Source: Terripilifer ovatus (GTDB lineage Bacteria; Pseudomonadota; Alphaproteobacteria; Rhizobiales; Beijerinckiaceae). From it: a stretch of 64,000 nt of DNA. The notes beneath the pieces were generated by a model, which worked only from the letters and a program-made list of their open reading frames with translations, was not told the DNA's origin and did not search any database. Positions 1 through 18,592 of the stretch are shown one piece after another. Position 1 is the stretch's first letter. The number at the start of each line of letters is the position of its first letter. The translations under genes and the position numbers were made by a program. The stretch spans positions 62,001 through 126,000 of the forward strand of contig JARHVB010000002.1 of the NCBI GenBank assembly GCA_029222685.1, written 5' to 3'.

Positions 1-466
1 CGGCTGCCAGATGCTTCTAGAGAATCCGTCAACCTACGTCGCGTTCGCCGAAAGTGCCTATGCGGAAACCGACTTTATCGCTGAAGTCGTCAGACGCAGC
101 GGCTGCGGGCTGCTGCTCGACGTCAACAACGTCTTCGTCGCGTCGACCAATCAGCAGTGGGATCCGGTCGCCTACATCGAAAGCTATCCGCTCGCGAGCG
201 TGATGGAGATCCACCTCGCCGGTAACGACCGACAGGCGGACGAGGCCGGCAGGCCACTTCTCATCGACACCCACGACCGGCCGGTTGAGGATGCCGTCTG
301 GTATCTCTACGAACTCGCGGTGCGGCTGGTCGGCCCGGTACCAACGCTGATCGAGTGGGATGCACAGGTGCCGCCCTGGTCTATCCTCGCCATGGAAGCG
401 AAGCGGGCCGAGTCGATCATGTCCGCGAACCGACCGGAGGGACGACGCCATGCAGTCGCTTGCTGA
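1..466 (+). CDS. bufB: Bufferin maturation enzyme BufB (DUF692), C-terminal part
   Basis: The gene is cut by the left edge; about 154 C-terminal residues are present of a family that is usually 270-290 long. DUF692 proteins are TIM-barrel multinuclear non-haem iron oxidases (MbnB, TglH) that modify cysteines of ribosomally made peptides. The visible part keeps likely metal-binding motifs: ENPSTY, LLDVNN, EIHLAG, DTHD and LIEWD. The last 17 bases overlap bufC, which begins with its own GGAGG ribosome site. The order DUF692-DUF2063-DoxX-ECF sigma-NrsF matches bufferin operons, in which the enzyme turns cysteines of a small exported peptide into copper-binding heterocycles. The precursor peptide gene should lie just left of the window. 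The family is certain; the bufferin role rests on context. Confidence 0.9.
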   Translation, partial: GCQMLLENPSTYVAFAESAYAETDFIAEVVRRSGCGLLLDVNNVFVASTNQQWDPVAYIESYPLASVMEIHLAGNDRQADEAGRPLLIDTHDRPVEDAVWYLYELAVRLVGPVPTLIEWDAQVPPWSILAMEAKRAESIMSANRPEGRRHAVAC

Positions 467-1238
467 ACTGCAGCGGAGCTTCGCGACCGCGTTGCTCGAT
501 CCCGCACTTCCGGCGCCGGCAGGTCTGGTCGGGCCGGACGGGAAGCCGAGCTCGAGGCGCTTCGCCGTTTACCGCAACAACGTGATACTCGGCCTGACGC
601 AGACACTTAAGGATTCCTATCCCGTCGTGCATCGCATCGTCGGATCGGAATTCTTCCTCGCCTTGGCCCGCGCCTACGTCGTCGGCGATTTGCCCCGGTC
701 GCCGATGCTTTTCGACTATGGCGCGGGCCTTCCGAACTTCATCGGCCGATTCGAACCCGCTTCCGTGTTGCCGTATCTGGCCGACGTGGCGCGCATCGAG
801 CGCGCATGGACGGAGGCCTATCATGCGGCCGAGGCCTCGCCGATCAGTGTTTCGGAGTTCGCGGAGATCGCTCCGGACCGGCTTCCGGCTATCACTCTGG
901 TGCTGCATCCGTCGGTCCGGATCGTACGTTCTCGGTTTCCGGCGTTGTCGATCTGGCAGATGAACGTCGACGGTGGCGTTCCTGGTCCGGTCGATTTGAC
1001 GGCCGGGGGCGAAAACGCGCTCGTCATCCGGCCGGAGGCCGGCGTGGAGGTTCGATCGATTCCGAACGGTAGTCCGGAGTTCATCCACGCGCTCGGATCC
1101 GGAAGGCCGGTGCTGGCCGCTTTAAAGGAGGCTATTGCCGCCGATCCGGTCTTCGATCTTTCGGCGAATTTGTCGGATCTGATCCAGGCGGGCGCCGTTG
1201 TCAGTTACGGGTTCGCACAGGAGCTGCTACGGTCATGA
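450..1238 (+). CDS. bufC: Bufferin maturation partner BufC (DUF2063/HvfC family)
   Basis: A 262-residue protein starting at ATG 450, chosen because GGAGG lies 10 bases upstream and the protein then begins MQSLAELQRSFATALLD, the usual start of this family. The N-terminal DUF2063 helical domain (about residues 5-95) contains the family signature around RRFAVYRNNV and the GSEFFLALARAYV helix. The C-terminal half is less conserved. These proteins act as peptide-binding partners of DUF692 enzymes during RiPP maturation. The name 'putative DNA-binding domain' on such proteins is historical. It overlaps bufB by 17 bases and bufD by the ATGA at 1235-1238, so the three are translationally coupled. Assignment to the family is strong; the exact partner role is by homology. 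Confidence 0.88.
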   Translation: MQSLAELQRSFATALLDPALPAPAGLVGPDGKPSSRRFAVYRNNVILGLTQTLKDSYPVVHRIVGSEFFLALARAYVVGDLPRSPMLFDYGAGLPNFIGRFEPASVLPYLADVARIERAWTEAYHAAEASPISVSEFAEIAPDRLPAITLVLHPSVRIVRSRFPALSIWQMNVDGGVPGPVDLTAGGENALVIRPEAGVEVRSIPNGSPEFIHALGSGRPVLAALKEAIAADPVFDLSANLSDLIQAGAVVSYGFAQELLRS

Positions 1239-1747
1239 GTTCCTTCTCGGCCATGTCGACTGTCGAAGATGTCGTGCGGGACCTCATCCAGCGCCTCGCG
1301 CAGGTTGCCCTCGTCGTGGCGCCGCCGGTGCTTCGCATCGCTCTGGCGCTGCCGTTCTTCAAATCGGGATTGACGAAGTGGAACGGCTTCCTGTCCCTAT
1401 CGCCGGCGGCGTCTTTCCTTTTCGAAGACGAGTTCAAGCTGCATATCTTTGGACAAGTGTACAATTTTCCCTTTCCCACTGTGTTCGCGTACTTCGACGG
1501 TATCGCGGAGATCGTATTACCGGTCTTGCTGATCCTGGGATTCGCGACGCGCTTCAGCGCGCTTGCGCTCTTGGTCATGACGGGTGTGATCCAACTCGTC
1601 GTACCGGAGGGTTGGGCGAACTTCCATCTGCCGTGGGCAGCGCTCGCCGTTGCCCTTATGGCGCTCGGTCCCGGCAAGCTTTCGCTCGACCATCTCGTCG
1701 CCTCGCTCTGCCCGCCCCGAGCAGTCTCTAGCAGAGGCCGTCAATGA
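1235..1747 (+). CDS. bufD: DoxX-family membrane protein BufD
   Basis: A 170-residue integral membrane protein with about four hydrophobic segments and the DoxX-type opening VAPPVLRIALALPFFKSGLTKW. A polar loop carries LSPAASFLFEDEFKL, followed by the FAYFDGIAEIVLPVLLILG segment, typical of DoxX. DoxX proteins occur at the end of DUF692/DUF2063 operons; the molecular role is unknown, though redox or membrane integrity functions have been proposed for relatives. Start and stop both overlap neighbours by ATGA (1235-1238 with bufC, 1744-1747 with the sigma gene). Family call is firm; the bufD name is by position in the operon. Confidence 0.85.
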   Translation: MSSFSAMSTVEDVVRDLIQRLAQVALVVAPPVLRIALALPFFKSGLTKWNGFLSLSPAASFLFEDEFKLHIFGQVYNFPFPTVFAYFDGIAEIVLPVLLILGFATRFSALALLVMTGVIQLVVPEGWANFHLPWAALAVALMALGPGKLSLDHLVASLCPPRAVSSRGRQ

Positions 1748-2373
1748 CTGAGCGTAACGGCCACCCTCCGCAACTCAGACTCGTCGGCGGCGGCAAGGCG
1801 GGATCGGCTGGTCCCGAGCCCACGATCCGCGACACCGACTGGGCAATTCTGATGGCTCATGCCCAAGACGGCGACAGGTCGGCCTATCAGCGCCTGCTGT
1901 GGGAAATTACTCCCTACCTGCGTTCGCTGGCAACGCGCCGACATCGCGACCCGAGCGACGTCGAGGATGCGGTGCAGGACATCCTGCTGACCGTTCACGC
2001 GATCCGGCACACATTCGATCCGACCAGGCCGTTTGGTCCATGGCTCGTGACGATCGCGAACCGGCGATTCATCGACCGGCTGCGGCGGCAAGGGCGCCGG
2101 CGCGACCGGGAGACGCCCCTGACGTCCGAGCATGAAACCTTTTCCGAGCCTCAAGCGAACTTGGAAGAGAGACTGGATAGACACGAATTAGAGAAGGCGC
2201 TCGACGAGCTTCCCCCTATGCAGCGCAAGGCAGTACAACTACTCAAGCTCAAGGAGATGTCGCTGAAGGAGGCCTCGATGGCGAGCGGTATGTCGATCGC
2301 GTCGCTCAAGGTCAACGTCCATCGGGCGGTAAAGAGTCTGCGGAAGATATTGGGCGATCGGAGCGAGTCATGA
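1744..2373 (+). CDS. sigF: ECF RNA polymerase sigma factor (SigF-like)
   Basis: A 209-residue ECF sigma factor. Sigma region 2 spans about residues 45-115, with DVEDAVQDILLTVH (the core-binding helix) and FGPWLVTIANRRFIDRLRR (promoter melting/-10 recognition). Sigma region 4 spans about residues 145-200, with ALDELPPMQRKAVQLLKLKEMSLKEA and the SIASLKVNVHRAVKSLRKIL recognition helix. It is followed by an overlapping NrsF-type anti-sigma gene (ATGA at 2370-2373), the pairing known for SigF of Caulobacter, which responds to heavy metal/oxidative stress and drives bufferin-type operons. Here the sigma gene is co-transcribed with its probable targets, implying positive autoregulation. Sigma identity is certain; the SigF name is by homology and context. 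Confidence 0.9.
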   Translation: MTERNGHPPQLRLVGGGKAGSAGPEPTIRDTDWAILMAHAQDGDRSAYQRLLWEITPYLRSLATRRHRDPSDVEDAVQDILLTVHAIRHTFDPTRPFGPWLVTIANRRFIDRLRRQGRRRDRETPLTSEHETFSEPQANLEERLDRHELEKALDELPPMQRKAVQLLKLKEMSLKEASMASGMSIASLKVNVHRAVKSLRKILGDRSES

Positions 2374-3038
2374 TTGCGACACCCGATCTCATCGAGTCTC
2401 TCTCGAAGAACTTGAAGCCGATACGCCGGCTGCGTCCTCCGGTGACGCGCGCCGCCTGCTGGCTTCTGCTCGCCTCAGTGGTCGTTGGTCTCCTGGCGGT
2501 CAGCCAGGGGTTCCGTCCGGATCTAGCGACACGGATTTACGATCCATCGTTCACCGCCGGCATAATTGGAGCGATCCTGACGGGCGTGCTCGCCGCGGTC
2601 GCCGCCTTCCTGGTGAGCCTGCCAGACCGCTCGCGCTTGTGGCTCCTTCTGCCAGCGCCGGCAGTCGCCCTTTGGCTGACGAATGTCGGCTATCAGTGCC
2701 TCGGTGATTGGGTCTCGTTCGGCACCGACGGCGTCTTGATCGGAGAGGCGACGCGTTGCCTCGCCACGCTGGTACTCACTAGCCTGCCGCTGTCGCTCGC
2801 GATGCTCGTCATGCTGCGCTACGCGGCGCCGCTGCGTCCGACCGCGGTGACCTGCATGGGCAGCCTGTCAGTGGCAGCGATCACGGCGACGGCCCTGTCG
2901 CTCTTCCATTCGGGAGACGCGACACTCATGATAATCATGTTCAACATCGGGACGGCTGTGATGTTCGTCGGTCTCGGGGGCCTGTTTGGGCACCGCATTA
3001 TGCAATGGATCGCGCCGCGCCCGGCGATTCGCGATTAG
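2370..3038 (+). CDS. nrsF: NrsF-type anti-sigma factor (DUF1109)
   Basis: A 222-residue polytopic protein with about six membrane helices and a short cytoplasmic N-terminus (MIATPDLIESLSKNLKPIRR) typical of DUF1109. Two cysteines within membrane segments, C110 (NVGYQC) and C130 (EATRC), match the pair that NrsF needs for sensing metal or oxidant and releasing SigF. It overlaps the sigma gene by ATGA, fixing stoichiometry by translational coupling. Expected role: hold the ECF factor at the membrane until copper, cadmium, chromate or disulfide stress. The operon seems to end here, because the next reading frame is broken. The family call is strong and the signal is inferred. Confidence 0.88.
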   Translation: MIATPDLIESLSKNLKPIRRLRPPVTRAACWLLLASVVVGLLAVSQGFRPDLATRIYDPSFTAGIIGAILTGVLAAVAAFLVSLPDRSRLWLLLPAPAVALWLTNVGYQCLGDWVSFGTDGVLIGEATRCLATLVLTSLPLSLAMLVMLRYAAPLRPTAVTCMGSLSVAAITATALSLFHSGDATLMIIMFNIGTAVMFVGLGGLFGHRIMQWIAPRPAIRD

Positions 3039-3711: not shown

Positions 3712-3996
3712 GTGCCGAAAGCTATCTGGAACGACAAAGTGATCGCTGAAGCGGAGCAAACCGAAGTTGTGGAGGGAAACCACTACTTCCCCCCGGATTC
3801 GCTGTCCGAGCAATATTTCAAGAATAGCGACACCGTCACTACGTGCGCTTGGAAGGGCATCGCGCGCTACTATACGATCGACGTGGACGGCAGCGTGAAC
3901 CCTGATGCCGCTTGGTACTATCCGAATCCCAAGCCGGCGGCCAGAAACATCGCTGGCAAGGTCGCTTTCTGGAAGGGCGTCAAGGTCGTTCCTTGA
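3712..3996 (+). CDS. DUF427 domain protein
   Basis: A 94-residue protein that is almost entirely one DUF427 domain: MPKAIWNDKVIAEAEQTEVVEGNHYFP at the start, then CAWKGIARYYTIDVDG and NPDAAWYYPNPKPAARNIAGKVAFW, which are the family's most conserved blocks. GGAGAG lies 6-9 bases before the ATG. DUF427 proteins are small beta-rich cytoplasmic proteins of unknown biochemical role. Here the gene stands alone after a decayed redox gene, and its last 17 bases overlap the convergent methyltransferase gene. Function cannot be assigned. Confidence 0.8.
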   Translation: MPKAIWNDKVIAEAEQTEVVEGNHYFPPDSLSEQYFKNSDTVTTCAWKGIARYYTIDVDGSVNPDAAWYYPNPKPAARNIAGKVAFWKGVKVVP

Positions 3997-4816
3997 GGTC
4001 TCCGGTGCGGGGGCCAGCATCCTTTGTGGCCGTCACGATCGAGTAGCCGAGGACGCCGGACTTGGCTGCGGCGAGCGCGTGCCGGACGATGTCCTTGGCC
4101 GCAGCGAGGTCAATGCCGGCTAGGTCAATCTTCTTCAGCCCGACCATGATCTCGGTCGTGAAAAGCCGCAACCTGATCGCCTCCACGAAGTCGATCAGAG
4201 CGCTATCATGCGCTTCCGTCACGCCGACAGCCAGACCGGCGCTGGCGAGCAACGCCCGATACTCGTCGAGCGGTCGCGCGTCCGCGACACACGCGATCCA
4301 GGCGGCGTCCCCTTCGAGTTCGCATGGCAGGCGGCCGCTGCGCGTGAGGTCGCTGATGCCGACCGTTCCACCGGACTTCAATACGCGCACGAACTCGGCC
4401 ACCGCCGTCGGCTTGTCCGGAAACGTGCATAGCGCACATTCGCAGACGACAGCGTCGAACGTCCCGTCGGCGAAGGGCAATCTCTCGGCATCGCCGCAGT
4501 AGAACGCGACCCTGTCGGCGAGCCTCAGGTTTCTTGCCTCCTTTGCCGCCGTCTCCACGCACCGCCGTCCGAAGTCGAGACCGACGACTTCGCAGCCGAA
4601 ACGCGCGGCGAGCACCAGCGCGCCGTCTCCGCGTCCGGACGCGACGTCGAGCACGCGGGAAGTCTGCGTCAAATTCAGGAGCCGACCCAGCCGCTCGGTG
4701 AGCTGCGCCCCGCCGGGGTGAAGGGCGTCGCCGACCAGAGTCCGGACGGCGGCGTGGTCGTACGCCGCCGCGCAGCAGCGCTTGATCGTCTCTGGCGAGA
4801 CTTGGAAGCCGGTCAT
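3980..4816 (-). CDS. Class I SAM-dependent methyltransferase, last gene of the VKOR/radical SAM operon
   Basis: A 278-residue protein with a Rossmann methyltransferase fold (Methyltransf_11 type). Motif I is VLDVASGRGDGALVLAARFGCEVVGLDFG (from about residue 55), the acidic residue after strand 2 is in VGLDFG, motif II is YCGDAERLPFADGTFDAVVCECALCTF, and motif III is EFVRVLKSGGTVGISD. The N-terminal 40 residues (RCCAAAYDHAAVRTLVGDALHPGG) form an extra conserved module with a CC pair, and CECALC supplies further cysteines. The ATG overlaps the stop of the radical SAM gene (ATGA at 4813-4816), so the pair is translationally coupled. The acceptor is unknown; an arsenite or thiol substrate cannot be excluded because of the cysteines. 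Methyltransferase identity is certain, substrate unknown. Confidence 0.85.
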   Translation of the reverse strand: MTGFQVSPETIKRCCAAAYDHAAVRTLVGDALHPGGAQLTERLGRLLNLTQTSRVLDVASGRGDGALVLAARFGCEVVGLDFGRRCVETAAKEARNLRLADRVAFYCGDAERLPFADGTFDAVVCECALCTFPDKPTAVAEFVRVLKSGGTVGISDLTRSGRLPCELEGDAAWIACVADARPLDEYRALLASAGLAVGVTEAHDSALIDFVEAIRLRLFTTEIMVGLKKIDLAGIDLAAAKDIVRHALAAAKSGVLGYSIVTATKDAGPRTGDLKERP

Positions 4817-6372
4817 CGCGCGCGCTTGTCGCCGAAGTCGAAGACGATGGGCTTCGGTTCGTAGGGCCGACCCTCCTTCCGGGCCCGGCGGCGCTCCGGC
4901 TCCATTGCGTTCAGTTGTGCGCGCGCCTGCTCGCGGTAACCGACGGTGTTGAATGTGCAGAACGGGATCTGCTTGCCACCCGGCAGCAGGAATTCCTTGC
5001 AGCACTTCATCGCGTTCTTCTGGTTGAACGTCCAAGGGTCCATGAAGTCCTGCAGCATGATCATGATCATGTTCTTGGCGATGCTGTTGATCGCCAGGCC
5101 GTCCGGAAGGTCGCAGGTCTGACACGAAATCGCGACCCGCCGGTTCGACGCATCGGAGCCGGCGACGGAGGACGAGGACCAGAGTCCTTCGAGCGCCGTC
5201 CTGATTTCTCGGCTGAAGTCCGGCACGATGCGGTTCGTAATATAGTCGAGATAGTCGCCGACGTCGATGATGCGCGGAAGCGGTGTCACCTTGCCATCCT
5301 CGACGAACGCGTAGGTCACCGAATTGCAAGTGGGGAAACAGCACGGCACCGGCACGAAGTCGGAGGCGACGAATTTGCCGGCGGTCTGCGTCTCGATCAG
5401 CCGGACGATCTCGGGAATCGTCATGCGCTGCATTGGGTCGTGGGTGGAGTGCCGCCCGGCGTGAAACGCCGGTTGGAAGGTGATGCCGCGGACCGCCGGA
5501 TGCGCGATCGCGAATTCGACGATTCGTCCGATCTCATGTTCATTGACGCCGCGTTCGATAGCGGGGACGATGGTCACGTCCAGTCCGATTGCCGCGAGGC
5601 GGTCTAGGGCACGGAGCTTCTCCTCCAAGATATCGGGTTCACCTCGGATCGCGCGATAGGTCTCGCGCTCGAAACCGTCGAACTGAAAGTAGAACGAGGG
5701 GCGGACCTTCTCGAGTTCGGTCAGAAACCTGTCGTCCCGGGCGATGCGCTTGCCATTGGTGTTTAGCATGACGAAGCGGATGTCGCGGGCGTAGGCGGCG
5801 CGGACGAAGTCGATGATCCGCGGATGCATCGTTGGTTCGCCACCGGAGAACTGGACGACCTCCGGCTGGCCTTCCGTGCGGACGTAGTCGTCGAGCATCT
5901 GCTCGACTTCCTCTATCGTGAGGCTGAAGCCGGGGGCGGCGTCCGCGAAGCAGAGCGGACAGTCCATGTCGCACGCGCTGTTCACCTCGATGATTCCGAG
6001 GCAGGTGTGCTGCTCGTGGTCGGGACAGAGCCCGCAATCGTGCGGGCAGCCCTCGTCGTGCCGCGTGCCGTACGCCAGCGGGATCGTGCCGGGCTTGTTG
6101 AAGCGGGCAAACGACACGTAGGCCCGCGCATCGTCGTAGACGAGCGCCATGAACGGCCCGCAATTCGAACACCGCTTGCTCATGTAGACCTTGTTGTCGC
6201 GAAGCAGGATCTTGGCATCGATCACCATCTTGCAGGATGGGCAGATACTGCGGGTGAGTTCGTGGAAGACGTAGTCCGAATCCACGCGCCGACCGGAAGA
6301 GCCTCCACCCGAAGCCTGACCACGGGCGAATGCAGCAAGGTTCTTGGCATCCATGGCCGACTTCTCCGACAT
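4813..6372 (-). CDS. Multi-cluster radical SAM enzyme (COG1964-like, tetraether lipid synthase relative)
   Basis: A 519-residue enzyme. The radical SAM motif CX3CX2C is C134, C138, C141 (SACDMDCPLC), followed by FSGGEP. Before it come two CxxC pairs (C44/C47 and C68/C71), arranged like a rubredoxin site, and a C109/C113/C116/C124 group. After the barrel come PCCFPTC, ISCQTCD, KCC and FCTFN, enough for further Fe-S clusters. This layout resembles the archaeal tetraether lipid synthase family (MJ0619/Tes, known to carry a rubredoxin-like iron and three 4Fe-4S clusters), and I recall these as COG1964. The ATG at 6372 shares one base with the VKOR stop; an upstream in-frame extension to 6810 overlaps that gene and reads as non-coding. 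What radical reaction it performs in this bacterium is unknown. Confidence 0.85.
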   Translation of the reverse strand: MSEKSAMDAKNLAAFARGQASGGGSSGRRVDSDYVFHELTRSICPSCKMVIDAKILLRDNKVYMSKRCSNCGPFMALVYDDARAYVSFARFNKPGTIPLAYGTRHDEGCPHDCGLCPDHEQHTCLGIIEVNSACDMDCPLCFADAAPGFSLTIEEVEQMLDDYVRTEGQPEVVQFSGGEPTMHPRIIDFVRAAYARDIRFVMLNTNGKRIARDDRFLTELEKVRPSFYFQFDGFERETYRAIRGEPDILEEKLRALDRLAAIGLDVTIVPAIERGVNEHEIGRIVEFAIAHPAVRGITFQPAFHAGRHSTHDPMQRMTIPEIVRLIETQTAGKFVASDFVPVPCCFPTCNSVTYAFVEDGKVTPLPRIIDVGDYLDYITNRIVPDFSREIRTALEGLWSSSSVAGSDASNRRVAISCQTCDLPDGLAINSIAKNMIMIMLQDFMDPWTFNQKNAMKCCKEFLLPGGKQIPFCTFNTVGYREQARAQLNAMEPERRRARKEGRPYEPKPIVFDFGDKRAR

Positions 6373-6767
6373 CACCCGAGCTTCCAGATCGAGTAGAGTA
6401 GCACTGGGGACAATACCGCGGTCGTAAGACAGTAGAAGCAGTAGCCGCCGAAGTTTATCATATCGCGGAGGCCGAGTACGTTGGCCGCCGTCGCCACGGC
6501 CGCGAGGATGAGCAGCGCGATCCAGACCCAGCGGGCTGGCGGAGCGAGCAACAGGCCTACGATCACGATGTACAGAGCCGCCCCGATGTAACCGTCCGGA
6601 ATCCCGAAGGGCCGCGCGAAGGGGGCGTCGGCGACGCCTTCGCATTGCTGACCGAGGAACGGACAGATGAGGCGCCCGACCAGACGGCTCTGGTACAGCC
6701 CGACGTAGAACATCGCGGCTGTGCTGGCCACTGAGACAGCGAAGGCGATGTGGCGGAAGTAACTCAT
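6372..6767 (-). CDS. Vitamin K epoxide reductase (VKOR)-like membrane protein
   Basis: A 131-residue protein with four predicted membrane helices. It has the VKOR layout: a loop cysteine pair C35 and C42 (LICPFLGQQCEGV), the IPDGYIGAALY segment, and a membrane CxxC, C110-F-Y-C113 (GGYCFYCLTT), that would react with quinone. The serine/threonine normally before the redox site is not obvious. Start at ATG 6767 is preferred because GAAGG lies 11 bases upstream; GTG 6779 is possible. It is the first gene of the operon (TGATG junction with the radical SAM gene). VKOR proteins oxidise thiols and pass electrons to quinone, or the reverse. There is no attached thioredoxin domain, so the partner may be one of the two downstream enzymes. 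Confidence 0.8.
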   Translation of the reverse strand: MSYFRHIAFAVSVASTAAMFYVGLYQSRLVGRLICPFLGQQCEGVADAPFARPFGIPDGYIGAALYIVIVGLLLAPPARWVWIALLILAAVATAANVLGLRDMINFGGYCFYCLTTAVLSPVLLYSIWKLG

Positions 6768-6779
6768 CGTCGCAGGCAC

Positions 6780-8975: not shown

Positions 8976-8989
8976 TTGACGTGTATCAA
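8976..8989. promoter_or_regulatory. Fnr/NnrR-type box 2 upstream of narK
   Basis: TTGAC-GTGT-ATCAA differs by one base from the consensus TTGAT-N4-ATCAA of anaerobic Fnr-type regulators. It is 87 bases before the narK start and eight bases from box 1, so two dimers could bind on nearly the same face of the helix. Confidence 0.7.
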
Positions 8990-9075
8990 TGTCACGCGAG
9001 GCCAGCTTTGGCAGTTTCCGCTTCGGACGGACCGAATCCGTTCCTTGGAGCTATCTGTCGAAGGGACTGCCTGCG

Positions 9076-11814
9076 ATGCAGACGACCGCCTATCCAAAAT
9101 CGGGCCAAATCCTGGGCGCGAGCACGGCTGCGTTCACGGTCTGCTTCGCCGTCTGGACCATCTTCTCGATCATCGGCATTCGCATCCGCCAAGAGCTCGG
9201 CCTCAGCGAAACGCAGTTCGGCTTGCTGGTGGGCACGCCGATACTCACGGGATCCCTGATAAGGGTCGTGCTGGGCATTTGGACGGATATCTACGGCGGC
9301 CGGATTGTCTTCACGGTGAACATGCTGGCGGCAGCGGTCGCTACATTTCTGCTGTCCTATGCCCATACCTATCCCCAGATGCTGGTGGCAGCGCTCGGCG
9401 TCGGCATCGCTGGCGGCTCTTTTGCTGTCGGTGTCGCCTATGTGTCGCGCTGGTATCCGGCGGAGAAACAGGGAACGGCGCTCGGCATTTTCGGCGCCGG
9501 CAATGTTGGCGCCGCGGTCACCAAATTTCTTGCACCTTTTGTGCTTGTCGCCTTCGGCTGGCAGGCCGTGGCGCAGGTCTGGGCGGCGGGCCTCGTCCTC
9601 ATGGCTGCGGTCTTCTGGTTCACGACAAGCGACGATCCGGTCCTGGTTGAACGCAAGCGCTCCGGCATCAAGCCGAAAAGCGCCTGGCTCGAACTCGAAC
9701 CGCTGAAGAACGTGCAGATCTGGCGCTTCTCACTTTATTATTTCTTCGTCTTCGGCGCCTTTGTCGCACTTTCGCTCTGGCTGCCGCAATACCTCATCAA
9801 TGTCTACGGCCTCGACATCAAGACGGCCGGCATGATTGCAGCCTTCTTTTCAGTGCCGGCGAGTCTCTTTCGCGCCTATGGCGGCCACCTCTCGGACAGC
9901 TTTGGCGCGCGGCGCGTGCTCTACTGGACCTTCATGGTCTCGGTCGCGGCGACCTTCATCCTGTCCTATCCGCCGACCGACTACGTGGTTCACGGTCTCA
10001 AGGGCGCAACCGCCTTTCATATCGAGATGGGCCTGGTTGGCTTTATCATCACGATCTTCGTGCTCGGCTTCTTCATGGCCCTGGGCAAGGCGGCCGTCTA
10101 CAAGCACATCCCCGTCTACTATCCCGAGCATGTTGGCTCGGTCGGTGGCCTCGTCGGCATGATCGGCGGCCTCGGCGGCTTCCTGCTGCCCATCCTGTTT
10201 GGCGTGCTGCTCGATCTCACAGGCCTCTGGACAAGCTGCTTTATGGCGCTCTTTGTCCTGGTCTCCGGTGCACTCCTGTGGATGCACGCCGCCATCCGCC
10301 AGATGGAACGCGGAACCGTCGGTGAGGCGCTCGATGCGCTTCCACCCTTTCCCGAAATGCAGGGCATGCCCAAGCCCGTGGCGGTGCCGCAAAACGCCGG
10401 CGCTCTCACGGATTGGCGTCCGGAAGACCCCACATTCTGGGAGACGAAAGGACGTCGGATCGCCAGGCGCAATCTCTGGCTTTCCATCCCGGCGCTGCTG
10501 TTGTCCTTTGCCATCTGGCAGGTGTGGTCTGTCGTCGTCGCCAAACTCCCGCTCGTCGGTTTCACCTTCACCACGGACCAGCTCTTCTGGCTCGCGGCTC
10601 TGCCCGGCATCTCGGGCGCGACGCTCCGGATCTTCTATTCCTTCATGGTGCCGATCTTCGGCGGCAGGCTTTGGACGACGCTCACGACCTGGTCGCTGAT
10701 CATTCCGGCGATGGGGATCGGCTATGCCGTGCAGAACCCGGACACGCCCTACATCGTGTTGCTCATCCTGGCACTGCTCTGCGGTTTCGGCGGCGGCAAC
10801 TTCGCTTCTTCGATGGCCAATATCTCCTTCTTCTTCCCGAAGGCCGAAAAAGGCAATGCGCTCGCGCTCAACGCCGGGCTCGGCAACCTCGGGGTGAGTG
10901 TCGTCCAGTTCGTCGTGCCGCTCGCGATCACCGCGGGGATATTCGGCTGGCTCGGCGGCGATCCGGCCATGGTCAAGGGAGCGTCGGGACCTGCGCCTCT
11001 GTGGTTGCAGAATGCGGGCTTCGTTTTCGTGCCGTTCATCGCGATCGCCGCCTTCGCGACATGGTTCGGCATGAATGACATCGCCTCCGCCAAAGCGTCG
11101 TTCGCCGAACAGGCCGTCATCTTCCAGCGCAAGCACAACTGGATCATGTGCTGGCTCTACACCGGCACGTTCGGGTCGTTCATCGGCTATTCCGCCGGCT
11201 TCCCGCTGCTGTCCAAGATGCTGTTCCCGGACGTGAACGCACTTCAGTTCGCCTTCCTCGGACCGCTCGTCGGCGCCCTGTCGCGCTCGGGAACGGGGTG
11301 GCTCGCCGATAAATACGGCGGCGCGCGCGTCACCTTCTGGGCGTTTGTCCTGATGCTGGCGGGTGTCGCAGGAGTCTTGTGGTTCATCGGCATCAAGGAT
11401 CAGCCCGGCGCCTTCTTCGGCTTCTTCGCCGCATTTCTTGTGCTGTTCTTCGCCACCGGCGTTGGCAATGCCTCAACCTTCCAGATGATCCCGGTGATCA
11501 TGGCGAAGGAGATGGGCCGCTTGATGCCCGCCGCCGATGCGGAAACGCGCCGCCGGCAGGCGGAGAAGGAAGCGGCCGCCATCACCGGCTTCACCTCGGC
11601 GATCGCTGCCTTCGGCGCCTTCTTCATTCCGAAGGCCTACGGCAGTTCGATCGTCCTCACGGGTGGCCCCGAGGCTGCTCTCTGGGGCTTCCTGCTCTTC
11701 TACGTGAGCTGTCTGGCGATCACCTGGGCCGTCTACACCCGCAGGGGCGCTCTTCTCCACGATATCGAGCGCGCCGGACAGGGCGCGTCCATCCGTCCGT
11801 CCGCTGCCGAATAA
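9076..11814 (+). CDS. narK: Fused nitrate/nitrite transporter NarK1-NarK2
   Basis: A 912-residue protein made of two complete MFS transporters in tandem, about 24 membrane helices. The first half (about residues 15-430) and the second (about 470-900) each hold nitrate-signature glycine-rich helices, such as GVGIAGGSFAVGVAYVS and LCGFGGGNFASSMANISFFFP. In Paracoccus-type fusions NarK1 is a proton-nitrate symporter and NarK2 a nitrate/nitrite antiporter, together feeding the cytoplasmic active site of NarG and removing nitrite. ATG 9076 is chosen because AAGGGA lies ten bases upstream; an extension to 8989 would overlap regulatory box 2. It is first in the nar operon, 14 bases before narG. Confidence 0.93.
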   Translation: MQTTAYPKSGQILGASTAAFTVCFAVWTIFSIIGIRIRQELGLSETQFGLLVGTPILTGSLIRVVLGIWTDIYGGRIVFTVNMLAAAVATFLLSYAHTYPQMLVAALGVGIAGGSFAVGVAYVSRWYPAEKQGTALGIFGAGNVGAAVTKFLAPFVLVAFGWQAVAQVWAAGLVLMAAVFWFTTSDDPVLVERKRSGIKPKSAWLELEPLKNVQIWRFSLYYFFVFGAFVALSLWLPQYLINVYGLDIKTAGMIAAFFSVPASLFRAYGGHLSDSFGARRVLYWTFMVSVAATFILSYPPTDYVVHGLKGATAFHIEMGLVGFIITIFVLGFFMALGKAAVYKHIPVYYPEHVGSVGGLVGMIGGLGGFLLPILFGVLLDLTGLWTSCFMALFVLVSGALLWMHAAIRQMERGTVGEALDALPPFPEMQGMPKPVAVPQNAGALTDWRPEDPTFWETKGRRIARRNLWLSIPALLLSFAIWQVWSVVVAKLPLVGFTFTTDQLFWLAALPGISGATLRIFYSFMVPIFGGRLWTTLTTWSLIIPAMGIGYAVQNPDTPYIVLLILALLCGFGGGNFASSMANISFFFPKAEKGNALALNAGLGNLGVSVVQFVVPLAITAGIFGWLGGDPAMVKGASGPAPLWLQNAGFVFVPFIAIAAFATWFGMNDIASAKASFAEQAVIFQRKHNWIMCWLYTGTFGSFIGYSAGFPLLSKMLFPDVNALQFAFLGPLVGALSRSGTGWLADKYGGARVTFWAFVLMLAGVAGVLWFIGIKDQPGAFFGFFAAFLVLFFATGVGNASTFQMIPVIMAKEMGRLMPAADAETRRRQAEKEAAAITGFTSAIAAFGAFFIPKAYGSSIVLTGGPEAALWGFLLFYVSCLAITWAVYTRRGALLHDIERAGQGASIRPSAAE

Positions 11815-11828
11815 TCAGGGGCAAAGCA

Positions 11829-14800
11829 ATGTCGCATTTTCTCGACCGGCTCACTTTCTTCCGCAAGACCGTAGGCGACTTCTCCGATGGCCACGGCATC
11901 GTCACGAACGAGGACCGTTCCTGGGAGGAGGGCTACCGCAAGCGTTGGCAGCACGACAAGATCGTGCGCTCCACGCATGGCGTGAACTGCACCGGCTCCT
12001 GTTCGTGGAAGATCTACGTCAAGGGCGGCATCGTCACCTGGGAGACGCAGCAGACCGATTATCCGCGGACACGGCCCGATCTCCCCAACCATGAACCGCG
12101 CGGCTGTGCACGCGGCGCCTCCTATAGCTGGTATCTCTATTCCGGCGCGCGGGTGAAATATCCGATGATCCGCGGGCGATTGCTGAAGCTGTGGCGCGCC
12201 GCGCGTGCCACGATGTCGCCTGTCGCGGCCTGGGCCTCTATCGTCAACGATGCGGACAAGCGGCAATCCTACATGTCGATCCGCGGCCATGGCGGCTTTG
12301 TGCGCGCCACCTGGGACGAGGTGAACGAACTTATCGCGGCGGCCAATGCCCATACAGTGAAGGCTCATGGCCCCGACCGCGTCATCGGCTTCTCGCCGAT
12401 CCCCGCCATGTCGATGGTCTCCTACGCTGCAGGCGCACGCTACCTGTCGCTGATGGGCGGCGTATGCATGTCCTTCTACGACTGGTATTGCGATCTGCCG
12501 CCGGCCAGCCCTCAGACCTGGGGCGAGCAGACCGACGTTCCCGAAAGCGCCGACTGGTACAACGCCGGTTTCATCATTGTCTGGGGCTCCAACGTGCCGC
12601 AGACGCGGACGCCAGACGCGCATTTTTATACCGAGGTTCGCTATAAGGGCACCAAGAGCGCGGTCGTCAGCCCGGATTATGCCGAGGCGACCAAGTTCGC
12701 CGATATCTGGCTCAACCCGAAACAGGGAACGGATGCGGCGCTGGCCCTGGCCATGGGCCATGTCATCCTGCGCGAATATTATCTCGATCGAACGGTTCCC
12801 TATTTCGACGATTATGCCCGTCGATATACCGACCTGCCTTTCCTGGTTCGCCTGACCGAGCGCAACGGCCGCCTCGTGCCCGAACGCCTTCTGCGCGCCT
12901 CCGAGATGGCGGGTGGCCTGGGCGAGACCAACAATCCCGAGTGGAAGACGGTTGCGATCGACGAGGGCACGGATGCTCTCGTCGCCCCGCGCGGCTCGAT
13001 CGGCTATCGCTGGGGCGAAAGCGCCAAGTGGAATCTCGAGGAGAAGGATGGCGAAGGCCATGACCTCCGCCTCAAGCTCACATTTGCCGGTGAAGGCGCC
13101 GAGATCGCAGCCATCGATTTTCCCTATTTCGGCGGCCGCGCCACGGAACATTTCGTTTCGACCGACCATGGAGAGATCCTTACCCGCAATCTGCCGGTCC
13201 GCCGGATCAGGTTGAGCGATGGCGCGGAGGTAGCGGTGGCCACCGTTCACGACCTGATGATGGCCAACTATGGCCTCGACCGTGGCTTTGGCGGCAATCA
13301 TGCGGCCAAGAATTATGACGAGGACGTGCCGTTCACCCCTGCCTGGGCGGAGCGTATCACCGGCGTCAAGCGCGATGCGATCATCACGGTTGCCCGTGAA
13401 TTCGCCACCAACGCGGAGAAGACCAACGGCCGCTCGATGGTGATCCTCGGCGCCGGCGTGAACCACTGGTACCACATGGACATGACGTACCGGGGGATCA
13501 TCAATCTCCTGGTTTTCTGCGGCGCTATCGGACAGTCCGGTGGCGGCTGGTCGCACTATGTGGGACAGGAAAAACTTCGCCCACAAACAGGCTGGACGCC
13601 GCTGGCCTTCGGCCTCGACTGGAGCCGTCCGCCGCGGCACATGAACTCAACCTCGTTCTTTTACGCCCACACGGACCAGTGGCGTTACGAGACGTTGACG
13701 GCTGCCGAAATCCTGTCGCCCACCGCACCGGAGGGTGACTGGAACAAGAGCTTTATCGACTACAATGTCGGCGCCGAGCGCATGGGCTGGCTGCCTTCGG
13801 CACCTCAGCTCAAGCAGAACCCGCTGACGATCGCGACCAAGGCCAAGGCGGCCGGTCTCGACCCGAAGGACTATGTCGCCAAAGCGTTGAAATCCGGCGA
13901 GCTGGAGCTCTCCTGCCACGATCCCGACGATCCCGCCAACTGGCCGCGCAACATGTTCGTGTGGCGCTCGAACCTGCTGGGTTCATCCGGCAAGGGGCAT
14001 GAATATTTCCTCAAGCATCTGCTCGGCACGACCCATGGCGTCATGGGCAAGGATCTCGGCGCCGAGGGGGCCGTTCGCAACACCGAGGTCGTGTGGCACG
14101 AGACCGCGCCGCAGGGAAAGCTCGACCTCCTCGTCACGCTGGATTTTCGCATGTCGACCACATGCGTCTATTCCGACGTCGTGCTTCCAACGGCCACCTG
14201 GTACGAGAAGAACGACCTCAATACATCCGACATGCATCCCTTCATCCATCCGCTTTCCGCGGCGGTGGATCCGGCATGGGAGTCACGGTCCGACTGGGAG
14301 ATTTACAAGGGTCTTGCCAAGTCCTTCTCGGAGGTTTCATCCGAAGTGCTGGGCATCGAGCAGGATGTCGTTCTCAGCCCGATCCAGCATGACAGCCCGG
14401 CCGAGATGGCGCAGGCCTTCGACGTGAAGGACTGGAAGCTCGGAGAAATCGAGCCCGTCCCCGGCAGGACCATGCCGTCAGTGACGCTTGTCACCCGCGA
14501 CTATCCCAATCTCTATGCTCAGTTCACGGCGCTGGGGCCGTTGATGGCGAAAGTCGGCAACGGCGGTAAAGGCATTGCCTGGAACACCAAGCACGAGGTC
14601 GAGGCGCTTGGAGCATTGAACGGCGTGCGGCTCGACGGTGCCGCCAAGGGGTTGCCGAAGATCGAGACCGATATCGACGCAGCCGAGGTCATCCTCATGC
14701 TGGCGCCGGAGACCAATGGCGAGGTGGCGATCAAAGCTTGGGAAGCCTTATCGAAGATCACCGGTCGTGAGCATGCCCATCTTGCCCTGCCGAAGGAAGA

Positions 14801-15572
14801 CGAGAAGATCCGCTTCCGCGATATCCAGGCGCAGCCGCGCAAGATCATTTCTTCGCCGACCTGGTCCGGCATCGAGAGCGAGAAGGTTTGCTACAACGCC
14901 GGCTACACCAATGTCCACGAGTTGATCCCGTGGCGCACGCTGACTGGCCGCCAGCAACTTTATCAGGACCACCTCTGGATGCGGGCCTTCGGCGAGGGGC
15001 TCGTCACCTGGAAGCCGCCGGTCGATCTGAAGACGATTCCAGGCATCAAGGATGTCCGCCCCAACGGGCACAAGGAGATCGTCCTCAACTTCATCACGCC
15101 GCACCAGAAGTGGGGCATCCATTCCACTTACACCGATAATCTGCTGATGCTGACGCTCAACCGCGGCGGTCCGGTGGTGTGGATTTCCGAAACCGACGCG
15201 AAGGTCGCCGGTCTCGTCGACAATGACTGGGTCGAGGTCTTCAACATCAACGGCGCGCTGACGGCACGTGCCGTCGTCTCCCAGCGTATCAAGCCCGGCA
15301 TGATGCTGATGTATCACGCTCAGGAAAAGATCATGAACACGCCGGGATCGGAGATGACCCGCAATCGCGGCGGCATCCACAATTCGGTCACCCGAACCGT
15401 ACTGAAGCCCACCCACATGATCGGTGGCTACGCCCAGCAATCCTACGGCTTCAACTACTACGGAACCGTGGGCTCCAACCGCGACGAGTTTATCGTCGTC
15501 CGCAAGATGGCCAATATCGACTGGCTCGAAGGGCCGCTCGTGTCTGAAGCGCCGAAGGAGGCCGCAGAATGA
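11829..15572 (+). CDS. narG: Respiratory nitrate reductase alpha subunit
   Basis: A full-length 1247-residue molybdenum enzyme that reduces nitrate to nitrite on the cytoplasmic face. The N-terminal 4Fe-4S (FS0) ligands are H50, C54, C58 and C93 (STHGVNCTGSC, RGCARGAS), the unusual His ligand that marks NarG. The molybdenum-bis-MGD ligand aspartate is in YDWYCDLPPASPQTWGEQTD. There is no twin-arginine signal, as expected for cytoplasmic NarG. The end overlaps narH by ATGA (15569-15572). Expected partners are NarH and NarI, with NarJ inserting the cofactor, and the operon also supplies moeA and moaA. Confidence 0.97.
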   Translation: MSHFLDRLTFFRKTVGDFSDGHGIVTNEDRSWEEGYRKRWQHDKIVRSTHGVNCTGSCSWKIYVKGGIVTWETQQTDYPRTRPDLPNHEPRGCARGASYSWYLYSGARVKYPMIRGRLLKLWRAARATMSPVAAWASIVNDADKRQSYMSIRGHGGFVRATWDEVNELIAAANAHTVKAHGPDRVIGFSPIPAMSMVSYAAGARYLSLMGGVCMSFYDWYCDLPPASPQTWGEQTDVPESADWYNAGFIIVWGSNVPQTRTPDAHFYTEVRYKGTKSAVVSPDYAEATKFADIWLNPKQGTDAALALAMGHVILREYYLDRTVPYFDDYARRYTDLPFLVRLTERNGRLVPERLLRASEMAGGLGETNNPEWKTVAIDEGTDALVAPRGSIGYRWGESAKWNLEEKDGEGHDLRLKLTFAGEGAEIAAIDFPYFGGRATEHFVSTDHGEILTRNLPVRRIRLSDGAEVAVATVHDLMMANYGLDRGFGGNHAAKNYDEDVPFTPAWAERITGVKRDAIITVAREFATNAEKTNGRSMVILGAGVNHWYHMDMTYRGIINLLVFCGAIGQSGGGWSHYVGQEKLRPQTGWTPLAFGLDWSRPPRHMNSTSFFYAHTDQWRYETLTAAEILSPTAPEGDWNKSFIDYNVGAERMGWLPSAPQLKQNPLTIATKAKAAGLDPKDYVAKALKSGELELSCHDPDDPANWPRNMFVWRSNLLGSSGKGHEYFLKHLLGTTHGVMGKDLGAEGAVRNTEVVWHETAPQGKLDLLVTLDFRMSTTCVYSDVVLPTATWYEKNDLNTSDMHPFIHPLSAAVDPAWESRSDWEIYKGLAKSFSEVSSEVLGIEQDVVLSPIQHDSPAEMAQAFDVKDWKLGEIEPVPGRTMPSVTLVTRDYPNLYAQFTALGPLMAKVGNGGKGIAWNTKHEVEALGALNGVRLDGAAKGLPKIETDIDAAEVILMLAPETNGEVAIKAWEALSKITGREHAHLALPKEDEKIRFRDIQAQPRKIISSPTWSGIESEKVCYNAGYTNVHELIPWRTLTGRQQLYQDHLWMRAFGEGLVTWKPPVDLKTIPGIKDVRPNGHKEIVLNFITPHQKWGIHSTYTDNLLMLTLNRGGPVVWISETDAKVAGLVDNDWVEVFNINGALTARAVVSQRIKPGMMLMYHAQEKIMNTPGSEMTRNRGGIHNSVTRTVLKPTHMIGGYAQQSYGFNYYGTVGSNRDEFIVVRKMANIDWLEGPLVSEAPKEAAE

Positions 15573-17095
15573 AAATCCGTGCTCAGATCGCTATGGTGCT
15601 GAACCTCGATAAATGTATCGGGTGCCACACCTGCTCGGTTACCTGCAAGAACGTCTGGACCAATCGCGAGGGCGTCGAATACGCCTGGTTCAACAATGTC
15701 GAGACCAAACCCGGCGTCGGCTATCCCAAGGAGTGGGAAAACCAGAAGAAGTGGAATGGCGGCTGGCGGCGCAAGAAGAATGGCCGCATCGAGCCGAAGA
15801 TGGGCGCCAAATGGCGTATCCTCGCCAACATCTTCGCCAACCCCGATCTGCCGGAGATCGACGACTACTACGAGCCGTTCACGTTCGATTATGAACACCT
15901 GCACACGGCGAAGGAATCGAAGGCCTTCCCCACGGCTCGCCCGCGTTCAGCCATCACCGGCGAGCGCATGGAAAAGATCGAGTGGGGCCCGAACTGGGAG
16001 GAGATCCTCGGCGGCGAGTTCGAAAAGCGCTCGAAAGATGTGAACTTCGAAGGTGTCCAGAAGGATATCTACGGACAGTTTGAAAACACCTTCATGATGT
16101 ACCTGCCGCGGCTATGCGAACATTGCCTCAACCCGGCCTGCGCCGCTGTTTGCCCGTCAGGCGCCATCTACAAGCGGGAAGAGGACGGCATTGTCCTGAT
16201 CGACCAGGACAAGTGCCGCGGTTGGCGCATGTGCGTTTCCGGCTGTCCCTACAAGAAGATCTACTACAACTGGTCGTCCGGAAAGTCGGAGAAGTGCATC
16301 TTCTGCTATCCCCGCATCGAGGCGGGGCAGCCGACGGTCTGTTCGGAGACCTGTGTCGGGCGCATCCGCTATCTCGGCGTCATCCTCTATGATGCCGACC
16401 GCATCGAGGCGGCCGCTACCACGCCCGATGAGAAGGATCTCTACCAGGCCCAGCTCGACGTTTTCCTTGACCCCAACGATCCTGCGGTCATCACCCAGGC
16501 GCGCGCCGATGGCATTCCCGACAACTGGCTGGAAGCCGCCAAGCTCTCGCCGGTGTGGAAGATGGCGATGGAATGGAAGATCGCCTTTCCGCTGCATCCG
16601 GAGTACCGGACGCTGCCGATGGTCTGGTATGTGCCGCCGCTCTCGCCGATCCAGTCTGCAGCCGCGGCAGGTAAAATGGGCGTAGACGGCGATATGCCGG
16701 ACGTGCGCAGCCTGCGCATCCCGCTTCAATATCTGGCCAATCTGCTGACCGCCGGAAAAGAAGAGCCGGTGGCGCTGGCGCTCGAACGCATGCTCGCGAT
16801 GCGCAGCTACATGCGGGCCAAGACGATCGACGGCCGCCTCGACGAGGCGATCGCGGCGCGGGTCGGCCTGACAGGGGCCGCCATCGACGAGATGTACAAG
16901 GTGATGGCCATTGCGAACTACGAGGATCGCTTCGTCATCCCGACTGCACACCGCGAATGGAGTGAGGATGCGCAAGACATGCGCGGCTCCTGCGGCTTCT
17001 CCTTCGGAAACGGCTGCTCGGGCGGCTCCACGGAGACCAATCTTTTCGGAACCAAGCAGGCCAAGCGGCCGACGAATCCGATGGAGATCGCGTGA
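15569..17095 (+). CDS. narH: Respiratory nitrate reductase beta subunit (iron-sulfur)
   Basis: A 508-residue electron-transfer subunit that wires NarI haem to NarG. Four cysteine groups are visible: CIGCHTCSVTC near residue 16, CEHCLNPACAAVCPSG, CRGWRMCVSGCPY, and CIFC with CSETC. In the third group tryptophan replaces one cysteine, the hallmark of the 3Fe-4S centre (FS4). Length is normal for the family. It starts inside the narG stop and ends on a GTGATGA overlap with narJ, so the subunits are made in coupled amounts. Confidence 0.97.
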   Translation: MKIRAQIAMVLNLDKCIGCHTCSVTCKNVWTNREGVEYAWFNNVETKPGVGYPKEWENQKKWNGGWRRKKNGRIEPKMGAKWRILANIFANPDLPEIDDYYEPFTFDYEHLHTAKESKAFPTARPRSAITGERMEKIEWGPNWEEILGGEFEKRSKDVNFEGVQKDIYGQFENTFMMYLPRLCEHCLNPACAAVCPSGAIYKREEDGIVLIDQDKCRGWRMCVSGCPYKKIYYNWSSGKSEKCIFCYPRIEAGQPTVCSETCVGRIRYLGVILYDADRIEAAATTPDEKDLYQAQLDVFLDPNDPAVITQARADGIPDNWLEAAKLSPVWKMAMEWKIAFPLHPEYRTLPMVWYVPPLSPIQSAAAAGKMGVDGDMPDVRSLRIPLQYLANLLTAGKEEPVALALERMLAMRSYMRAKTIDGRLDEAIAARVGLTGAAIDEMYKVMAIANYEDRFVIPTAHREWSEDAQDMRGSCGFSFGNGCSGGSTETNLFGTKQAKRPTNPMEIA

Positions 17096-17799
17096 TGACC
17101 GCACAGCCTTCAAACAAAACTTTCAAGGCTCTTTCGGCGCTCCTGACCTACCCTACCGGGGAACTTACGATGGCGGTTCCGGAAATCGCAGCGGCGATCC
17201 GGGATGAGCGGTTGGTATCGCAGAAAGCGGTGCGGCAGTTGCAGCCTCTGTTTGCAGACCTGAGTACGTCAGACCTGTACGATCTGCAGGAACGCTATGT
17301 TGCATTGTTCGACAAGACGCGGCGTCACTCGCTGCATCTCTTCGAGCATATTCACGGCGAGAGCCGTGATCGGGGCCAGGCGATGGTCGATCTGGTCGCG
17401 CATTATGAGCGTGGCGGACTTCTCATCGCCGCGAATGAATTGCCCGATTTCATTCCGCTCTTCCTGGAGTTTCTCTCCGCCCGGCCGCTTCAAGAGGCGC
17501 GAGGCCTGCTCAAGGAGACGACTCATATCCTCTCGTTGCTCGAGGAAAGACTGGCCAAGCGAAACGCAGGCTACGCCGCCGTATTCACGGCCATACTTTC
17601 GATCGTCGGCGGTACTGCCGTGATCGCCGGTGCGGTCGAAACCGACGACGAGCCGGACGACTTGGCTGCGATCGACGCCGCCTGGGAAGAAACGGCTGTC
17701 ACCTTCGGTCCTGGAAATGCAACCGATGGCTGTTCTGTCGATCGGTTGAGAATCCAGATGCGTGCCGCCAATCGCGACGTGCGGCACGGCGCAGCCTAG
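17095..17799 (+). CDS. narJ: Nitrate reductase molybdenum-cofactor assembly chaperone
   Basis: A 234-residue all-helical chaperone of the TorD/NarJ family, with LSALLTYPTGEL near the start and the strongly conserved HLFEHIHGESRDRGQAMVDLVAHYERGGL. It binds the NarG N-terminus, holds it until Fe-S and Mo-bis-MGD are inserted, and is not part of the final enzyme. The start may be GTG 17092 or ATG 17095; both overlap the narH stop. The acidic C-terminal part (TDDEPDDLAAIDAAWEE) is usual for the family. Confidence 0.94.
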   Translation: MTAQPSNKTFKALSALLTYPTGELTMAVPEIAAAIRDERLVSQKAVRQLQPLFADLSTSDLYDLQERYVALFDKTRRHSLHLFEHIHGESRDRGQAMVDLVAHYERGGLLIAANELPDFIPLFLEFLSARPLQEARGLLKETTHILSLLEERLAKRNAGYAAVFTAILSIVGGTAVIAGAVETDDEPDDLAAIDAAWEETAVTFGPGNATDGCSVDRLRIQMRAANRDVRHGAA

Positions 17800-17812
17800 C
17801 GGAGGAAATGCA

Positions 17813-18592
17813 ATGTCCAATGCCATCAACTACGCGCTTTTTGGCTGGTATCCCTATCTCTGCCTGACGGTGTTTCTCCTCGGCAGCCTCCTCAGGTTCG
17901 ACCGCGAGCAGTACACGTGGAAGACGGGGTCCTCCCAACTCCTGAGACGGCGCCAGCTTCGCTGGGGTTCCAATCTCTTTCACGTGGGCATCCTGGCGAT
18001 CTTCGGCGGACATTTCGTCGGCCTACTGATGCCGATCTGGATCTTTGACATGCTCGGCATCTCACACAGCTTCAAACAGGGGCTCGCGATCGTTGTCGGC
18101 GGCATTGCCGGCATTGCCTGTTTCATCGGCATCGCGCTTCTTGCCCATCGCCGGCTGTTCGATGCCCGGATCCGAAAAACCTCCAGTTTTGGCGACATCG
18201 CCATCCTGTTGCTGCTCTGGCTCCAGCTCACGCTCGGCCTTTCCACCATCTTCGTTTCGCTCGGCCATATGGACGGCCATGAAATGGTGAAATTCATGAA
18301 TTGGGCACAGGGGATTCTCACCTTGCAGCCTTCGGCCTCCGCCTATGTGTCGGACGTGCATCCGATCTTCAAGGCTCATCTCTTTCTGGGGATGACCATC
18401 TTCCTGGTCTTTCCGTTCACGAGGCTGGTCCATGTCTGGAGCGCGCCGGTCTGGTATCTCGGCCGCCCGGGCTATCAGGTTGTGCGCACGCGCTTTGCGG
18501 GGCGTCGCTCATCTACACCTGTTCCGGCGGTCCGGTTCCCTGCGCCTGGGCGGTCGGTCGCCACGGCTCCCATCCGCCAGCCTGCGGAGTAG
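17813..18592 (+). CDS. narI: Respiratory nitrate reductase gamma subunit (cytochrome b)
   Basis: A 259-residue membrane subunit with five helices that oxidises quinol and carries two b haems. Candidate axial histidines are H57 and H67 (FHVGILAIFGGH) and H189 and H207 (HLFLGMTIFLVFPFTRLVH), matching the known H/H pairs at the ends of helices 2 and 5. GGAGG lies before ATG 17813. The C-terminal tail of about 25 residues, rich in Pro, Arg and Ala, is longer than in the E. coli protein. The reductase is anchored facing the cytoplasm. Confidence 0.95.
   Translation: MSNAINYALFGWYPYLCLTVFLLGSLLRFDREQYTWKTGSSQLLRRRQLRWGSNLFHVGILAIFGGHFVGLLMPIWIFDMLGISHSFKQGLAIVVGGIAGIACFIGIALLAHRRLFDARIRKTSSFGDIAILLLLWLQLTLGLSTIFVSLGHMDGHEMVKFMNWAQGILTLQPSASAYVSDVHPIFKAHLFLGMTIFLVFPFTRLVHVWSAPVWYLGRPGYQVVRTRFAGRRSSTPVPAVRFPAPGRSVATAPIRQPAE

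Follow-up and report, generated by a model that had tools for sequence, protein, structure and literature searches.

The reaction of the archaeal tetraether lipid synthase Tes (GDGT-MAS; MJ0619, structures 7TOL and 7TOM), a radical S-adenosylmethionine (SAM) enzyme, proceeds via a carbon-sulfur bond to a cluster; its residues Met439 and Tyr459 are fully conserved in 1000 archaeal homologues, and the variants M439A and Y459F remain active (PMC9433317, like the other papers cited here drawn on in excerpt). Lloyd et al. noted Tes homologues in bacteria not known for biphytanyl chains (PMC9433317), and Zeng et al. listed 456 bacterial homologues and proposed for them the synthesis of branched glycerol dialkyl glycerol tetraethers (brGDGTs; PMC8941075). 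A comparable arrangement is that of TrsS and the DVU_1556 methyltransferase (NCBIfam NF045646 and NF045667), in which a Tes-type radical SAM protein stands with an ArsM-like methyltransferase and redox-type genes; TrsS is tabulated as a radical SAM selenoprotein (PMC13188914), and no function was found described for this pair in the literature searched. Most ArsM proteins depend for catalysis on four conserved cysteines, and radical SAM/ArsM pairs acting on arsenic are known in ArsL/ArsM and ArsS/ArsM (PMC8552651). Here we analyzed a 64,000-nucleotide stretch of the Terripilifer ovatus genome (contig JARHVB010000002.1, positions 62,001 to 126,000; hereafter the window), where a radical SAM gene and a methyltransferase gene form a pair which, judged by family score cut-offs, is akin to Tes, TrsS/DVU_1556 and ArsM yet separate from them, being a member of none. 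ArsS and ArsL, the known radical SAM partners of ArsM, belong to other families. The pair itself was not found described in the literature searched, a coverage outside which most subscription journals lie.

A preliminary description of this DNA had reported three minus-strand genes in one row (3980-6767), joined by overlapping stop and start codons, and this arrangement was found as described: the VKOR and radical SAM genes overlap at TGATG (6374-6370), and the radical SAM and methyltransferase genes at ATGA (4816-4813). Their main features are listed below, with residue counts over 83 radical SAM rows (those of the 82 loci and that of the outgroup L013) and over 78 methyltransferase sequences retrieved from the 82 loci at a threshold of 120 bits, four loci being left out of the latter (L038, L048 and L058, with no methyltransferase, and L041, truncated at a contig end).

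6372-6767, minus strand: VKOR-family membrane thiol oxidoreductase, 131 amino acids (aa) from ATG (alternative start GTG at 6779), stand-alone, with the four expected cysteines
4813-6372, minus strand: radical SAM gene, 519 aa, predicted Tes/GDGT-MAS fold
5950-5973, minus strand: CX3CX2C for the SAM-binding cluster (C134/C138/C141), Cys in 82/83 rows each, one gap
5326-5346, minus strand: PCCFPTC, radical SAM residues 343-349; C344 in 83/83, C345 in 82/83 and C349 in 82/83 rows
3980-4816, minus strand: methyltransferase gene, 278 aa, class I SAM-dependent; nearest families DVU_1556 and ArsM
4772-4777, minus strand: methyltransferase CC (C14, C15), 78/78 rows
4436-4438, minus strand: methyltransferase C127, in line with the SNC-motif cysteine of ArsM, 78/78 rows
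4289-4291, minus strand: methyltransferase C176, in line with the GC[VIL]AGA-motif cysteine of ArsM, 77/78 rows, one X

All three proteins scored far above their Pfam cut-offs (in brackets) and beyond what chance would give, with 53.5 bits for VKOR PF07884 (27.5), 69.3 for Radical_SAM (29.5) and 80.9 for Methyltransf_11 (21.2), and the radical SAM protein also matched the HMPTM zinc ribbon. The host genome (7.2 Mb) carries one copy of the pair at the thresholds used; in best segments its radical SAM protein shares 99% identity with the one from the metagenome-assembled genome (MAG) Rhizobiales bacterium 62-47 and 90% with the one from Afipia sp. 1NLS2.

A contig scan of genomes returned 164 relatives; the 82 loci consist of the best 80 of these, the window and one Mycolicibacterium plasmid record. 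The counts given here therefore describe relatives near the window, with related loci that are not independent, flanks that are short in several loci and genes called by a simple in-house caller. Within this set, which spans five phyla, a methyltransferase match lies at most 3 kb downstream of the radical SAM gene in 79/82 loci, and in 40 the two called genes overlap by four bases, while in L066 they are separated by 1,036 bases holding two called genes. The three exceptions are L048, where the contig ends, L058, with 2.3 kb of sequence on that side, and L038, which has no match within 3 kb in 10 kb of available sequence. VKOR, on the other hand, was detected by BLAST, with the window protein as the only query, in only 10/82 loci, upstream of the pair in eight proteobacterial loci and downstream in two acidobacterial ones. 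Of the three-gene neighbourhood whose linkage in relatives the preliminary description had made the test of its reading, the radical SAM/methyltransferase part held and the VKOR part did not: the conserved unit is the pair, without VKOR.

The pair is distributed patchily. Of 385 genomes sampled from the window's own class, six matched at E 1e-40, five at 28-39% identity, and only the window's own is of the window type; among 61 relatives five matched at E 1e-20: the host genome itself and four others, these at 35-39% identity. In a Chloroflexota sample 39/301 genomes matched at E 1e-60, in 32 cases at an identity of at least 52%, several of these latter matches being partial or with an internal stop. 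Named isolates with the pair are Afipia sp. 1NLS2, Bradyrhizobium, Salinispora and Ktedonobacter racemifer, and among viral contigs the two pattern matches were not relatives. In a tree of 47 radical SAM rows, the 24 clade rows (23 pair-linked plus L038) fell on one side of a branch whose support (84/84) is not strong, apart from Tes, with which a 733-aa acidobacterial protein is placed, and from other Tes-like branches linked to an LGT-like protein; the distant placements are unsure because of several long branches, that of the 733-aa protein included. The window row nested with Afipia, Bradyrhizobium and a proteobacterial MAG, and acidobacterial rows were adjacent to it, which suggests transfer. 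A broken second copy of the pair in a Nocardia genome (L160 4768-6765), with a middle radical SAM stretch 100% identical to the intact copy, suggests recent copying; one TGA inside a pair methyltransferase lies in this copy, along with other defects, and was attributed to decay rather than to selenocysteine.

The radical SAM protein scored highest against TrsS (317 bits) and Tes (314.8 bits), and its best sequence match in the PDB was GDGT-MAS (E 2e-75). Its AlphaFold model (mean pLDDT 77; low at 1-24, 93-99, 376-392, 404-406, 411-429 and 517-519) aligned with 7tom (TM 0.73, 511 columns) and 7tol (TM 0.74, 501 columns), the next structural match being MoaA (TM 0.41), so that GDGT-MAS is the sole structure matching most of it. 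The cysteines that the preliminary description had assigned to a rubredoxin-like set (C44/C47/C68/C71), a C109-C124 group (109/113/116/124), the catalytic motif and C-terminal groups (344/345/349/417/420/457/458/472) are all present. Of 18 tallied, 17 are Cys in 80-83 of the 83 rows and C420 in 63, while the C71 position holds Cys in 15, His in 67 and a gap in one. The model is consistent with a Tes fold bearing a rubredoxin-like site and three cluster sites, its likeness to Tes extending to the N-terminal and SAM-cluster cysteines; the C-terminal cysteines of Tes align with C349, C457, C458 and C472, whereas C344, C345, C417 and C420 are additional, as is the methyltransferase partner. The PCCFPTC motif is typical of the window clade and differs in Tes and in the other aligned branches.

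The Tes-like layout proposed earlier was accordingly upheld by profile, fold and metal-site residues and at the same time limited by the score and by two residues. The Tes cut-off (NF045702, 450 bits) was not reached by the window (314.8) or by L027, L056, L097 and L067 (315.8-350.3), and no match above it was found in 10 host genomes. Met439 and Tyr459 of Tes correspond to Q441 and F461; over the 83 rows the former position holds Q in 59, K in 19, T in three, a gap in one and Met in one, the outgroup L013, and the latter never Tyr, with Ile, Phe, Glu, Val or Gln instead. As Tes M439A and Y459F are active, the loss of these residues alone does not settle the reaction. Being below the cut-offs of both Tes and TrsS, the radical SAM protein falls inside no family of solved function, a placement that the preliminary description had named as refuting its reading. 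Separately, the acidobacterial genome G447 encodes the 733-aa Tes homologue (L161 6326-8524) in which the aligned Met and Tyr are both kept, and which is perhaps more likely than the pair to make membrane-spanning lipids there. The LGT-linked branches (L013, L014, L019-L024, L149-L157) are 27-47% identical relatives adjoining an LGT-like protein, recognized by Pfam for L149, by annotation for L014 and by eye for the rest. Among the genes called there BLAST gave no match to the window methyltransferase; these branches, often also with small membrane proteins, represent another uncharacterized pairing.

As for the methyltransferase, the NCBIfam ranking placed DVU_1556 first (134.7 bits, cut-off 155) and arsenite methyltransferase second (97.9 bits; ArsM NF008823, cut-off 263). 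Its N-terminus had been described as cysteine-rich, but the first 70 residues hold a single CC pair (C14, C15), which is invariant. A feature that had not been considered is the presence of ArsM-type cysteines: C127 and C176 align with those of the SNC and GC[VIL]AGA motifs in four ArsM sequences, which also have an N-terminal CC.

The preliminary description had found no recognized pathway for the locus, and indeed no described function came to light, even though NCBIfam already names the nearest relatives as TrsS and the DVU_1556 methyltransferase. The TrsS cut-off (490 bits) was not reached by the window (317) or by four other clade members (314.6-366.7), while 35/36 clade members gave a match to the DVU_1556 model at E 1e-30, the best at 3.4e-44. 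Among 400 Chloroflexota genomes, 32 matched this model at E 1e-30 and one only, G575, was over the cut-off. Its locus L184 encodes DVU_1556 (183.4 bits), TrsS (543.4) and DVU_1553 ligase (343.1), all over cut-off, and a DVU_1557-like gene (52.5 bits) below the cut-off of 60. The same genome also carries a window-type pair, split over contig C79, with the radical SAM start and a MerA-like gene (by eye) behind it, and contig C29, with the radical SAM end followed by a methyltransferase 52% identical to that of the window. Compared with the window pair, the L184 genes are in reversed order, the TrsS is 30% identical and keeps Met where the window clade has Gln, Lys or Thr, and the methyltransferase lacks the CC while retaining the equivalents of C127 and C176. 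Because both pairs coexist in G575, the window pair looks like a separate counterpart of Trs.

With its Pfam match and four putative catalytic cysteines (the loop pair in 10/10 VKOR rows, CxxC in 9/10), the window protein belongs to the VKOR family; found in only 10/82 loci, it was rejected as a fixed component and looks like the local version of a replaceable redox partner. A MerA-like flavoprotein, TlpA/CcdA or MauE is frequent in the remaining loci. When these are counted together with VKOR, 27/62 loci have such a gene no more than two genes away from the pair, against a mean of 16.3 and a maximum of 26 in 2000 within-locus shuffles (L013, the 19 SAR202-type loci and one locus in which no pair was called are excluded). 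Two Pfam scans (n = 72 and n = 54) of neighbouring proteins matched pyridine-nucleotide disulfide oxidoreductases in 10 and 4, AhpC-TSA in 4 and 3 and DUF3179 in 3 and 2, besides VKOR in 3/72, MauE in 3/54 and DUF427 in 3/54; this tally covers 126 of 236 proteins (excluding the 19 SAR202-type loci, L013, L026, L100, L102 and L104) and, being hand-picked, favours recognizable genes. In the SAR202-type loci the neighbours look by eye like PlsY and CaiB. That the flavoprotein is a true MerA was rejected for L097 (362.9 bits) and L037 (343.1), both below the cut-off of 454.45, and a MerT-like label reflects weak scores (15.9-17.9 bits) and inspection by eye. In three acidobacterial loci a PrdB/GrdB-like gene directly follows the methyltransferase (L036 12344-13099, by family scan; L051 12319-12801 and L052 3074-3811, by similarity), and a stretch resembling it lies downstream in G575 (L185). 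Membrane proteins resembling, by eye, TauE/SafE sulfur-compound exporters occur near the pair in L048 (34-783) and L066 (7653-8363), and a 58-aa cysteine-rich protein just upstream of the radical SAM gene in L085 (5561-5737) had no NCBIfam match at E 0.01.

What the pair does can be proposed from these residues and precedents. Tentatively, and with less than even confidence, we suggest that it uses radical chemistry to bond an inert carbon to S, Se or As, a soft atom which it also methylates, with exchangeable thiol-redox support. The Tes-fold enzyme would generate a 5'-deoxyadenosyl radical and take hydrogen from an unactivated carbon of a probably hydrophobic substrate; the carbon radical would be captured by the soft atom, either Se or As bound to a thiolate or, as happens in the Tes intermediate, a sulfur belonging to the C-terminal cluster; and the methyltransferase would hold this atom through its ArsM-like C14/C15, C127 and C176 and methylate it. 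In the window VKOR may set the thiol redox state, a role that would fall in other loci to TlpA/CcdA, MauE or a flavin disulfide reductase. The near-constant linkage, the grouping of the clade rows in the tree, a fold matched over most of its length by GDGT-MAS only, the invariant ArsM-aligned cysteines, the ArsL and ArsS precedents and the redox genes make us favour this proposal. Several observations weigh against it. The N-terminal alignment with ArsM is loose and the four-cysteine spacing of ArsM is not reproduced there; the fold search with the methyltransferase model (pLDDT 93) ranked natural-product and small-molecule methyltransferases of the AtmM, RebM and SpnF type first, so that the resemblance to arsenic enzymes rests on residues and not on fold rank; and the cysteines could instead bind a structural metal. 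With four query proteins, a link to arsenic operons was not found, ArsR being clear near the pair in L102 only and weak in L089 and L091, and 3/10 genomes searched have a separate ArsM over the cut-off. The redox association is itself only suggestive, since the families were selected after the loci had been seen. A more specific version, in which a Tes-type lipid radical is trapped by the thiolate-held atom rather than by a second chain, giving lipids with a chain carbon joined to a methylated soft atom (methylthio-, methylseleno- or dimethylarsinoyl-lipids), seems to us very doubtful.

The pair might instead be a Tes-like lipid synthase, the radical SAM enzyme joining two unactivated membrane-lipid carbons and its partner methylating the head group or chain. 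Its fold and metal sites, the activity of M439A and Y459F Tes, for which residue loss does not exclude the chemistry (PMC9433317), and the brGDGT role proposed for bacterial homologues (PMC8941075) agree with this. We nevertheless consider it unlikely, given the sub-threshold scores of five clade members and of everything in the 10 host genomes, a clade lacking the Met and Tyr that the separate G447 homologue keeps, and methyltransferase cysteines that it leaves unexplained. To narrow the soft-atom proposal to an arsenic-specific module, making or detoxifying organoarsenicals like ArsL/ArsM, would suit those cysteines, the second rank of the arsenite methyltransferase family and the fact that this protein is the host genome's only match to that family at E 1e-20; we hold this to be quite unlikely, as the score is far from the ArsM cut-off, almost no ArsR lies nearby and the DVU_1556 member also has the equivalents of C127 and C176, while no gene called over the window's first 20 kb matched ArsR, ArsC or ArsN2. 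A role in maturing a natural product, a cofactor or a protein, where methylation would be of the ordinary kind on C, N or O and the cysteines would bind a structural metal, would fit the class I fold, closest to RebM, AtmM and MitM, and appears doubtful in that no further biosynthetic gene was constant across the loci (open reading frames under 50-70 aa lay outside this search). That the two enzymes merely share an operon and catalyze unrelated reactions could draw on L038 and L058, where no partner lies within 3 kb, and is hardly credible with the methyltransferase downstream in nearly all loci of five phyla, 40 with the four-base overlap.

Around the pair the window contains two further features:

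3712-3996, plus strand: DUF427 protein (Pfam PF04248, 108 bits), convergent with the methyltransferase gene and overlapping its end
1744-3038, plus strand: ECF sigma factor (Sigma70_r2) and NrsF anti-sigma factor (100.5 bits)

DUF427 also occurs near the pair in some other loci, and NrsF in L042 and L051, beside sigma-like genes; the ECF sigma/NrsF genes are possible regulators of the radical SAM/methyltransferase locus. They close a row of DUF692-like (by eye), DUF2063, DoxX, ECF sigma and NrsF genes (11-3038), which we take to resemble a bufferin-type metal-stress operon, and similar genes lie near the pair in L027 and L028. Farther along (8989-18592), a long MFS protein, in which Pfam marks three MFS stretches, looks like a fused transporter and is followed by apparent respiratory nitrate reductase genes (by eye).

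Overall, the pair is a widespread, uncharacterized bacterial radical SAM-methyltransferase module present in five phyla. The Tes homologues of bacteria have been interpreted as potential producers of the membrane-spanning lipids used as climate proxies (PMC8941075); since this clade has a different residue set and a nearly constant methyltransferase partner, its presence should not by itself be taken to indicate such lipids. As a small system of two enzymes, the pair lends itself to the study of radical chemistry on inert carbons and, if lipids carrying a methylated soft atom were indeed its product, it would represent a bacterial route to them.

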